This document shows, one piece after another, positions 34,569-38,120 of a DNA stretch of 64,000 nucleotides. Below the pieces are notes generated by a model. That model saw only the letters and a program-made list of their open reading frames with translations. It ran no database searches and had not been told where the DNA came from. Made by a program: the position numbers and the translations under genes. The stretch spans positions 3,718,501-3,782,500 of the forward strand of contig NZ_CP135529.1 in assembly GCF_032401055.1 (NCBI RefSeq), given 5' to 3'. The first letter of the stretch is position 1; each line of letters begins with the position of its first letter. The DNA is from Tardiphaga sp. 709 (GTDB lineage: Bacteria; Pseudomonadota; Alphaproteobacteria; Rhizobiales; Xanthobacteraceae).

Positions 34569-35033
34569 TTACCGCCCCGTCGATCCGAAGCCGCCGCTGC
34601 CGCGTTCGGTTTCGCTGAGCGCCGCGACCACCATAAGTTCCGCATGCGTGACCGGCGCGATCAACATCTGGGCGATTCGCTCGCCGCGTTTGATCGTGAA
34701 ATCCGCGGGGCCGTGATTGATCAGCAGCACGCCGATCTCGCCGCGGTAATCGGCGTCGATGGTGCCCGGTGAGTTCAGCACGGTGATGCCGTGCTTGGCG
34801 GCAAGGCCAGAGCGCGGTCGCACCTGCGCCTCATAGCCGGGCGGCAGGGCGATGGTCAGCGCGGTCGGCACCAGCGCATATTTGCCGCTCGCGAGAATCA
34901 TCGGCTGGTCCTCGGGAACTGCGGCGAGTAGATCGAGGCCGGCGGCATGCGCGGTCTGATAGGCCGGCAGCGCAAGGCCAGCGCCATGCGAGAGCTGCTG
35001 GACGTCGACCTGAACGGGGATGGCAGCGCTCAT
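34569..35033 (-). CDS. dut: Deoxyuridine 5'-triphosphate nucleotidohydrolase (dUTPase)
   Basis: 154 residues. Hydrolyses dUTP to dUMP and pyrophosphate, keeping uracil out of DNA. All five trimeric dUTPase motifs are present: [43 protein letters not shown]. The start overlaps the coaBC stop by four bases (ATGA); the coaBC-dut order is widespread. Confidence 0.97.
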
Positions 35034-36490
35034 GATGGGTCTTTCGTGGATTGCGTCGATTTATTTGATGTCACTGCGTCGGCGATTCGCGCGACCAGGG
35101 TCGTCGCGACTTGTTCCTTGCTCATCGGTGCCCACGAATCAACGGCGATATCCGCGCTGTCCTTGCTGCGTGTCAGCAGATGCACGGTATTGTCGTCGCC
35201 GCCCATGATGCCGGTGGCTGGCGAGACGTCATTGGCAACGATCCAGTCGCAGCCCTTGCGTGCGATCTTGGCCTTGGCGTTGTCGATCAGGTGCTCGGTT
35301 TCGGCGGCGAAGCCGATCACCAGCGGCGGCCGATGCGCGGGGAGTTTCGAGATCGTCGCGAGAATATCGGGATTTTCCGTGAGCTGCAGCGGTGCCATCG
35401 CAGCACCGGCGGTCTTCTTCAACTTCTGCGCACCTTCGTTGACGACGCGCCAGTCGGCCACAGCCGCCGCGAAAATCGCGATATCGACCGGCAACGCGGA
35501 CTGGACCGCCGCGAGCATGTCACGCGCGGATTCGACATGCATCATCATCACGCCCGGCACCTCGTCGAGATCGACCGGGCCCGAGACGAGAATGACCTCT
35601 GCGCCGGCGGCCCGCGCGGCGGCAGCAATCGCATAGCCTTGCTTGCCGGACGAGCGATTGGCGATGTAGCGCACGGGATCGATCGGCTCATGGGTCGGGC
35701 CCGCGGTGATCAGTACGCGCTTGCCGGCCAGTGGCTTCGGCGTGGGTGGCTGCAGGAAGGTGTGAGCCGCGATCGCGATCTCGGTCGGCTCCGCCATGCG
35801 ACCGACACCGGATTCGTTGCGTTCGGCCATCTCGCCGGCATTCGGCCCGATCATCCTCACGCCGTCACGCTGCAATTGCGCGACATTGCGGCGCGTCGCG
35901 GCGTTATTCCACATCAGCGGATTCATCGCCGGCGCAATCAGGATCGGTTTGTCGGCGGCGAGCAGAATCGCAGAGGCGAGATCATCCGCATGACCATTGG
36001 CCATCTTCGCCATCAGGTCTGCGGTCGCGGGTGCGACCACGATCAAATCGCATTCGCGCGCAAGACGGATATGCCCGGCATCGAATTCGCTCTGCGGATC
36101 GAACAGGTCGGTATAGGCCCGCTCGTTGGACAGGGCGCTGGCGGCCAGCGGGGTGACGAATTGCTGCGCGGCCCGGGTGAGCACCACGCGGACGTGGATG
36201 CCGCGCTCTTTCAGCCGGCGGATCAGGTCGAGCGCTTTATAGGCGGCGATGCCGCCGCCGATGATCAGCGTGACGCGGAGCTGATCGCCGATGTATTTCA
36301 ATGGCTTGGATGGGTTTTCCGGGTTTGGCTTGTCTTGCGGAAGTCTTGCGTCAGTCTTGAGGCCGTCTTGCGACGCCTCGCGCAAAATGACCCGCACCTC
36401 GTCCTCAACCGACCGTCCGTTGCGGGCGGCACGCAGCCGCAATTCATCGCGAATGGCGTCGTCGAGCTTGCGGATCGTCAGGCTGGCCAT
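35030..36490 (-). CDS. coaBC: CoaBC with an N-terminal FitA-like ribbon-helix-helix domain
   Basis: 486 residues. Residues 1-40 ([20 protein letters not shown], then [15 protein letters not shown]) are a FitA/VapB-type RHH DNA-binding domain, joined by a Pro/Asp/Lys linker (41-63) to CoaBC. CoaC (about 70-250) makes 4'-phosphopantetheine from [19 protein letters not shown], active-site His140 in AGHIRLA, PAMN 187-190. CoaB (about 255-470) joins cysteine to phosphopantothenate: [37 protein letters not shown]. The loop that carries the catalytic Cys in E. coli CoaC reads [17 protein letters not shown], without Cys. An internal TTG start at L64 would give plain CoaBC but has no clear ribosome site. 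See the palindrome upstream. Confidence 0.9.
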
Positions 36491-36508: not shown

Positions 36509-36549
36509 CTGATGGCAATGCTAGCATAAAATGCCAGCACTGCAATCAG
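36509..36549 (-). promoter_or_regulatory. 41-bp palindromic operator candidate before RHH-coaBC
   Basis: 16 of 20 base pairs are symmetric about 36529. It is built of four 8-mers: TGATGGCA (36510), TGCTAGCA (36519), TGCCAGCA (36532), TGCAATCA (36541). These resemble the half-sites TGCTATCA/TGATAGCA that I recall for the gonococcal FitA antitoxin. It fills the gap between the ubiB stop and the coaBC ATG, the position expected for an operator of the RHH domain encoded next. Confidence 0.65.
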
Positions 36550-36551
36550 TT

Positions 36552-38120
36552 CTAGCGAATCGAGAGCAGGAGTCCCAGGAATGACAGGGCGATCACCCAG
36601 ACGCCAACCGTGCGCCAGCGGAGCTGCTTGGCCCGTGCCCGCGCGATGGCGGCAATGGTCGCGTCGTCGAGCCTGACGCCGTCGCGGGTCATGGTCTCCA
36701 ACTGTTCCAGCACCGTCAGCGCCCGTGTTGCCAAGGCCGGCAGACTGCCGGCGACCTTGCCGAGTTCGCCGGCGCCGGCGAGCGCACCCTGAATCTTGCC
36801 CAATGGGCCGAGATTGCGCTCGATCCATTCGCGGACGACGGGATCGGCGACCTTCCAGATGTCGAGCTTGGGATCGAAGCTTCGCGCGACGCCTTCGACC
36901 ACGACCATGGTCTTCTGCAGCAGGATCAATTCCGGCCGCGTGCGCATATCAAAGAGACCGGTGACCTCGAGCAGCAGCGTCAGCAGCTTGGCCATCGAGA
37001 TTTCTTCGGCCGTGCGATTGTGAATCGGCTCGCCGATGGCACGGATCGCCTGCGCGAAATTCTCTACTGAATGGTGGCCTGGCACATAGCCGGCCTCGAA
37101 GTGGACTTCGGCGACGCGGCGATAGTTGCGGGTGATGAAGCCCAGCAGAATCTCCGCGAGGAAGCGGCGCTCCTTCAGACCGAGCCGACCCATGATGCCG
37201 AAGTCGACGGCGACGAGGCGGCCGTCAGGATCAAGGAACAGATTGCCGGGGTGCATGTCGGCATGGAAGAAGCCGTCACGCAGCGCATGGCGCAGGAAGC
37301 TCTGGATCACCTTGCGGCCAAGGTCCGGCAGATCGACGTTGGATTCTTCCAACCCCTTGTGGTCGTTCAGTGCGATACCGTCGATCCACTCCATCGTCAG
37401 CACATTGTGCGAGGTACGATCCCAGTCCACTTCCGGCACGCGGAAATCCGAATCGTTGCGGGTGTTCTCCGCCATCTCGGAGAGTGCTGCGGCTTCGAGC
37501 CGAAGATCCATCTCCATCGCCACCGAGCGCGACATGGTGGTGATGATCTCGATCAGGCGAAGGCGCCGCGCTTCCGAAAAATGCTCTTCGGCCTTGTGGG
37601 CGACGTAAGCGAAATCGCCGAGGTCGCGGCGAAATTGTGCCGCGACATTCGGGCGCAGCACTTTCACGGCGTATGTCTTGCGGACACCGTCCTTGTCTAT
37701 CTCGGCGCGATGCACTTGCGCGATCGAGGCCGCGGCGACCGGCGGGCTGAAGCTCGCATAGAGCTGCGCCACAGGGCGTTCCAGCGAAGCGGCGACGACG
37801 CCTTCGGCCTCGGTCAGGGAGAACGGCGGCAGCCGATCCTGCAGACTTTCGAGATCGCGCGCCATGGCGACGCCGACCACGTCGGGCCGTGTCGCGAGAA
37901 ACTGCCCGAGCTTGAGATAGGCAGGTCCCAGCCGGGTCAGCGCGCGCGACAGCCGTGCGCCGGATTTCGCGCCGGGCCGCTCAATGAGCCGCGCCATGCG
38001 CAGCGCGAGCTGTCCCGGCGGCGGCACCAGCGAGGGATCGACGACGCCGAACACGCCTTCGCGCGCAAACACGAAGCCGGCGCGGGCCAGCCGCGCCATA
38101 TGATTGAGTGCGGAGATCAC
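36552..38120 (-). CDS. ubiB: UbiB, atypical kinase/ATPase for ubiquinone biosynthesis
   Basis: 522 residues, GTG start overlapping the ubiE stop (GTGA). The ABC1/ADCK fold shows the KxGQ motif ([13 protein letters not shown]), the alanine-rich loop [11 protein letters not shown] that replaces the P-loop, the catalytic segment [12 protein letters not shown] and metal [13 protein letters not shown]-terminal membrane anchor is seen ([15 protein letters not shown]). It is needed for ubiquinone synthesis, probably by extracting lipid intermediates. Operon ubiE-ubiB. Confidence 0.95.

Follow-up and report, generated by a model that had tools for sequence, protein, structure and literature searches.

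A FitA-type ribbon-helix-helix domain fused to CoaBC in Tardiphaga sp. 709 and its relatives, a predicted autogenous regulator of CoA synthesis

Architecture of the coaBC locus

The window analyzed here is a 64,000-nt stretch of the Tardiphaga sp. 709 genome (NZ_CP135529.1, positions 3,718,501 to 3,782,500). Within it, coaBC is one open frame on the minus strand (36490-35030) encoding 486 aa, with the following parts and neighbors:

36552..38120, minus strand: presumed ubiB/AarF-like gene (open frame), the upstream neighbor, whose end adjoins the predicted operator
36374..36490, minus strand: FitA-like ribbon-helix-helix (RHH) DNA-binding domain, residues 1-39, assigned from PF22513, the closest structures (FitA) and dN/dS
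36278..36373, minus strand: linker, about residues 40-71, poorly conserved by identity and dN/dS, containing the TTG codon of L64
35783..36277, minus strand: CoaC (phosphopantothenoylcysteine decarboxylase, flavoprotein) domain, residues 72-236 (PF02441, E 1e-32)
35174..35731, minus strand: CoaB (phosphopantothenate-cysteine ligase) domain, residues 254-439 (PF04127, DFP, E 9.7e-70)
34569..35033, minus strand: presumed dut-like gene (open frame), overlapping the end of coaBC at 35030-35033

The Pfam family FitA-like_RHH (PF22513) covers residues 2-39 with an E-value of 2.3e-15 and a score of 56.7 bits (cut-off 27), and the closest solved structures to the domain are those of FitA (2h1o/2bsq, E 0.0016). 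The preliminary description of this DNA had placed a FitA-kind RHH at the start of the coaBC frame, in frame with an intact CoaBC, and the matches to PF22513, PF02441, PF04127 and TIGR00521 bear this out; the linker, described there as 23 residues long, comprises instead about 31 residues (40-70). RHH, Flavoprotein and DFP are the only families above the Pfam cut-off in the 486-aa protein, and the whole sequence scores 391.4 bits against the TIGR00521 coaBC equivalog (cut-off 219.7). RHH-CoaBC carries a complete CoaBC, whose catalytic function is predicted. As PF04127 matches only once in the whole genome, this is the sole copy, and for the same reason coaBC is presumably essential here. PMC11487621 reports that coaBC of B. 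subtilis is essential unless pantethine is supplied.

The ubiB-like gene ends 61 nt ahead of the RHH start, and a ubiB-like gene also precedes coaBC in relatives. Because the end of the ubiB-like gene borders the predicted operator, no toxin gene lies between it and coaBC. There is no adjacent PIN-domain toxin gene, as had been described, and the genome's one PIN match lies on its other contig (C2). Nor did a second close FitA turn up in the genome among RHH matches up to E 0.001, and a crude pattern that we made for the toxin-binding C-terminal tail of FitA did not match the linker of the window protein. In PADLOC the ubiB-like gene (36552-38120) weakly matched the kinase models of PD-T4-6, probably through a shared kinase fold only.

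Selection on the RHH domain, the linker and the start codon

We calculated dN/dS by the Nei-Gojobori method for 104 fused sequences (862 sequence pairs), which include some copies and near-copies. The values were 0.216 for RHH, 0.204 for CoaC, 0.210 for CoaB and 0.737 for the linker (residues 40-70), and the mean pairwise identities among the 104 sequences were 78%, 79%, 76% and 17%, respectively, the linker figures being limited by an unreliable alignment. The RHH domain is under purifying selection like the catalytic parts of the enzyme; its ratio of 0.216 lies below 1, the mark that had been proposed as a check. Together with the strong Pfam score, this value rules out a chance RHH-like stretch. 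The N-terminal strand of the domain, [TS][IV]R.LD, which we take to be the DNA-contacting strand, is conserved in all 26 aligned proteins.

Translation of CoaBC had also been suggested to start at the TTG of L64. This codon is not conserved: position 64 is TTG in 6 of the 104 fused sequences and any Leu in 12 of them. A start at L64 alone is ruled out, since the codon is unconserved and the RHH is under selection. Upstream of the RHH start, 65 of the 104 fused genes have a Shine-Dalgarno-like tetramer, a count made without a control.

The tail pattern was found in 9 of 18 separate FitA proteins versus 6 of 104 fused linkers; these six are from Bradyrhizobium and have near-identical linkers. 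The linkers of two fused loci, L027 (genome G019) and L179 (G068), hold the sequences LINPP or TINPP, which slightly resemble the end of FitB (..INPW). They could be traces of a lost toxin gene or could have arisen by chance.

Distribution of the fusion

With the RHH domain and linker as query, we obtained matches in 75 of 150 relatives, which rules out an artefact of a single genome. All 17 same-genus genomes had a match, in one case at a contig end (G008) and in another from residue 20 onward, the RHH being partly masked (G016). In 36 of a further 72 genomes of the same family the match falls in an open frame of 469 aa or longer, and two more matches sit in short frames (G071, at a contig end, and G037). 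The same-family loci inspected by sequence were L002-L031 (L011 and L028 being cut) and L162-L164, and the others were judged by frame length alone. L162, L163 and L164 are all fused with half-sites (see below) upstream, the RHH of L164 being partly masked; they stand outside the counts. CoaBC proteins longer than 450 aa, another proposed check, are thus common among relatives.

The best 80 of 526 named relatives include Bradyrhizobium, Tardiphaga, Rhodopseudomonas, Nitrobacter, Afipia and Pseudolabrys. Many bacteria of soil and of root nodules have the fusion. In 79 of these best 80 the reading frame of the RHH runs on into CoaC, with L042 and L054 truncated beyond that point; the exception is L070, from a MAG, in which the frame is broken. 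An order-wide scan of 297 genomes gave six RHH matches outside family f1 in frames of at least 450 aa; five belong to fusions, and the sixth (G123) is an unfused FitA. A scan of 385 genomes of the class (E 1e-6, at most 18 candidates scored per genome) gave no RHH match in a frame of at least 450 aa outside the same family, so that within this sample the fusion seems confined to the order. One 6.6-kb contig with the fusion (L111) comes from a record labelled as a Deltaproteobacteria MAG, probably through misbinning.

We found no earlier description of a CoaBC with an RHH or antitoxin domain, or of its autoregulation, among the openly licensed papers that our searches listed, and a description elsewhere is possible. 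No word starting with "pantothen" appears in the 2009 survey PMC2701414, and in the available text of PMC11487621 the DNA-binding domain that is mentioned belongs to CymR, not to CoaBC.

Predicted operators upstream of coaBC

An alignment of 16 same-genus loci, together with site statistics, pointed to an array of sites ahead of the gene:

36510..36548, minus strand: predicted operator array, with outer half-sites TGATTGCA and TGCCATCA and inner half-sites TGCTGGCA and TGCTAGCA
36518..36545, minus strand: weak promoter-like elements TTGCAG and TAGCAT inside the operator, from a loose pattern

The predicted 39-bp array stops 19 nt ahead of the ATG. Between the ubiB-like gene and the ATG the window reads TGATTGCA...TGCTAGCATTGCNATCA, and across the 16 same-genus loci the arms are near-invariant and the middle is variable. 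The consensus of the palindromic site is TGATNGCA-N-YGCNATCA.

Of 89 distinct fused loci, 83 have the half-site TGATNGCA or its complement no more than 150 nt upstream, and 67 have at least two copies. Upstream of unfused coaBC genes lacking a FitA neighbor, the exact half-site was found in 1 of 23 same-family and 0 of 20 same-order loci (together 1/43). The difference between 83/89 and 1/23 gives a Fisher p-value of 7e-17, uncorrected for relatedness; the same-family fused loci are kin, and their half-site counts are not independent events. Mononucleotide shuffles gave a half-site in 1.8% of cases (91 loci, including two copies). These counts exclude L003-L016, whose genus is also in the named collection, and L057 and L061, which are copies of L022 and L025. 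The frame-broken fused locus L070 was removed from the unfused set, and we did not count as unfused either L130, L138, L139 and L140, which have a FitA beside coaBC (one of them, from G065, with half-sites), or eight order-level loci with a fusion or a FitA neighbor. Our script recognized no core in L011, L028, L042, L054, L111, L115, L207 and L211, while L143 is cut and L144 is not a CoaBC.

The six exceptions among the fused loci fall into pairs. In L024 and L090 the sites lie 171-282 nt upstream, with a repeat-like insert between operator and start codon. In two Rhodopseudomonas loci, L062 and L076, both arms are altered alike (TGATTGCA to TGACTGCA, giving TGACTGCA...TGCAGTCA) and the symmetry is kept, and L023 and L041 have near-matches to the half-site. 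Paired changes were also seen in genus g25, where the variable base of the arm often switches on both sides together (TGATTGCA.YGCAATCA, TGATAGCA.YGCTATCA). The commonest spacings between half-sites are 9, 22-23 and 31 bp, at which successive palindromes would share one face of the helix.

We searched for the exact palindrome TGATNGCANTGCNATCA in 91 genomes and found 13 sites, of which 10 lie 17-86 nt before an RHH match and 3 are within long open frames; a reversed-pattern control gave 0 sites. In genus g25 (60 genomes) the palindrome matched in 42, and of 30 loci examined 24 were upstream of RHH-coaBC (L256 included), 5 were in long open frames and 1 (L245) was in none and not before coaBC, a placement that covers all but 12 of the matching genomes. 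No recurrent second target of the exact palindrome appeared among the sites examined (91 genomes and 30 g25 loci). A genome-wide scan of the window genome allowing one mismatch gave 16 matches, one of them at coaBC. The palindromic site thus looks nearly dedicated to RHH-coaBC. By their sequence, the sites before its own gene are operator-like, and we predict that they are bound by the RHH.

A loose -35/-10 pattern was found in the last 110 nt before 72 of 91 fused genes, versus a mean of 10.8/91 in shuffles and 2 of 23 unfused genes, counts that are weakened by the fact that the half-sites themselves feed the pattern. A stricter sigma-70 scan found no promoter in the upstream region of coaBC in the window.

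Origin from FitAB modules

Several relatives carry what may be earlier states of the locus. Intact fitA and fitB genes lie between ubiB and coaBC in G060 (L160) and G089 (L161), and fitA, fitB and coaBC overlap or nearly touch in G333 (L201, family f24) and G244 (L208, family f16); matches to the PIN and RHH families confirm fitB and fitA in L160, G333 and G244. The intact order fitA-fitB-coaBC, found in three families, makes a CoA-synthesis gene the third member of a toxin-antitoxin operon. G026 and G065 have fitA, then a remnant of FitB that keeps its start and end and lacks the middle, and then a separate coaBC. Three half-sites at 9-bp spacing are present in G065 and also in L110, a fused relative of it.

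Separate fusions were found in family f24 (G192, G222 and G315, with TGATTGCA.TGCTATCA upstream) and in family f16 (G346, with one exact half-site). A further f24 fusion, G295 (L196), has a different RHH, and the TGATNGCA half-site is absent. Pfam matches were obtained for the fusions L195, L196 and L198. Within genus g108, a different FitA is fused in L196 and two FitA-like genes precede a separate coaBC in L200 (G157), which suggests rapid turnover of FitA at coaBC in this genus.

The exact half-site was not found at the intact fitA-fitB-coaBC loci L160, L161, L201 and L208 or at the fitA-remnant locus L158, and with L196 also lacking it the half-site is not universal. A relaxed half-site was present at 8 of 18 separate FitA genes (7 of 13 of those away from coaBC) versus 2.6% in shuffles, and the site may well have come along with the antitoxin for this reason.

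On a tree of 59 CoaBC cores with the RHH left out, 20 of them fused, the fused state requires 6 changes, of which at least 5 are imposed by well-supported branches. With 77 cores, nearly all of the same family, the tree requires 2 changes because G065 falls inside the fused group. Both are gene trees, on which changes may be gains or losses. The FitA-like tail retained in G065 speaks against the re-splitting of a fusion. FitA reached coaBC more than once, since G026 and G060/G089 fall among unfused genes. Sinorhizobium sp. and Shinella records of the plasmid collection, 76% identical over 33-37% to the f24 fusions, were the nearest ones, and in the two examined none of the listed frames ahead of coaBC is a FitA. 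On our best reading of these sequences, an antitoxin domain would have been domesticated, more than once, as an autogenous regulator of an essential CoA enzyme.

A model for autogenous regulation and its alternatives

We consider it highly probable that the bifunctional CoA-synthesis enzyme RHH-CoaBC also regulates the transcription of its own gene, most likely by repression, through an RHH derived from FitA. The sequences themselves show the fusion, its selection and spread, the conserved upstream sites, the intermediates and several separate fusions, whereas DNA binding, the sign of regulation, the position of the promoter, the effector and the stoichiometry are inferred. In this model a FitAB (VapBC-type) module came to lie between ubiB and coaBC and lost the toxin FitB and the toxin-binding tail of FitA, and its RHH was fused in frame with CoaBC. 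The RHH dimers carried by the CoaBC oligomer would bind an array of TGATNGCA half-sites, paired 9 bp apart as a palindrome with the next palindrome 22-23 bp on, or about two helical turns. The array would overlie the presumed coaBC promoter, and transcription would drop once there is sufficient free enzyme, or free enzyme in a particular ligand state. According to PMC3920265, FitAB places four heterodimers on a 36-bp site via the RHH of FitA; the CoaBC oligomer could replace the toxin in holding the RHH dimers together. Repression is proposed because PutA, in its trifunctional form an N-terminal RHH flavoenzyme, represses its own regulon (PMC5293562). CoA or a CoA thioester would be a plausible effector, since both inhibit the CoaB of mycobacterial CoaBC (PMC7794376). 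For the fuller scenario the balance is even: FitAB operons of the Hyphomicrobiales may repeatedly have captured coaBC as a third overlapping gene, with loss of the toxin and fusion of the RHH producing a feedback switch in which the oligomer bridges several RHH operators and CoA thioesters are read at CoaB.

The preliminary description had offered two readings, an enzyme carrying its own repressor domain and a captured antitoxin. Selection on the RHH and the dedicated upstream sites support the former, FitAB intermediates in relatives support the latter, and the two are probably parts of one story.

The alternative with the most in its favor, possible although we judge it unlikely, is that the RHH regulates coaBC as an activator or as a ligand-free buffer of enzyme concentration. 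Autogenous control needs no ligand, and the position of the sites relative to the transcription start is presumed. However, the loose -35/-10 pattern at 72 of 91 loci, itself fed by the half-site, would place the sites over the promoter, and VapBC operons are negatively autoregulated, with FitA binding the region before fitAB (PMC3920265).

It is improbable that each gene yields two products, a CoaBC translated from within the linker in addition to the full-length protein, in which case only part of the subunits would carry the RHH. An in-frame ATG or GTG is present in the linker of 52 of the 104 fused genes, but the other 52 have none, and the presence of TTG at position 64 in only six genes and the uncontrolled count of Shine-Dalgarno-like tetramers before the RHH start also speak against it.

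Somewhat less probable still is that the RHH was retained solely as a dimerization or assembly module of the CoaBC oligomer that makes no contact with DNA. RHH domains are dimers, and the independent fusion L196 lacks the half-site. The mycobacterial CoaBC is a dodecamer (PMC7794376). Against such a role, however, palindromic sites occur at 83 of 89 fused loci and hardly ever at unfused genes, and the strand [TS][IV]R.LD is kept throughout the aligned proteins. Finally, the occurrence of FitA-like matches on plasmids (239 records, many from rhizobia) could suggest that the RHH is a leftover antitoxin neutralizing incoming FitB toxins (anti-addiction), but we regard this as very unlikely, as the crude pattern indicates that fused proteins lack the FitA C-terminal tail (6/104 versus 9/18) and the conserved upstream sites would be left unexplained.

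If autogenous control by RHH-CoaBC is correct, a transcription regulator of CoA synthesis would be built into the pathway enzyme itself in large and well-studied genera such as Bradyrhizobium, Rhodopseudomonas and Nitrobacter. The relatives also let one read a route from antitoxin to housekeeping regulator, since intact module, broken-toxin intermediate and fusion are all present among them, and the fate of chromosomal toxin-antitoxin genes becomes a question that common laboratory strains can address directly.

Comparison with known systems

RHH-CoaBC shares with CoaBC (Dfp) proteins all the CoaBC domains, an equivalog score over the cut-off and its presence as the sole copy. In contrast, the unfused same-order CoaBC examined have a short N-terminus without an RHH and the half-site upstream in 1 of 43 cases. 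With FitA of the FitAB/VapBC-type modules it shares the RHH family PF22513 and the closest structures 2h1o/2bsq, and fitAB pairs precede coaBC in some relatives; unlike FitA, it has no toxin partner, has lost the toxin-binding tail and is fused to a housekeeping enzyme. PutA offers a parallel as a multifunctional flavoenzyme with an N-terminal RHH, and RHH-CoaBC has palindromic sites before its own gene. It differs from PutA in being CoaBC, a biosynthetic rather than catabolic enzyme, in lacking the proline dehydrogenase and P5C dehydrogenase domains (Pfam scan) and in having an RHH that appears to derive from the FitA antitoxin; its repression is predicted, and no membrane switching is expected. 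NadR and BirA are enzyme-repressor fusions of NAD and biotin metabolism. Like RHH-CoaBC, they combine a cofactor-pathway enzyme with its own DNA-binding domain and feedback at transcription, whereas their DNA-binding domains are helix-turn-helix rather than RHH, their pathways are different and they have no toxin-antitoxin origin.
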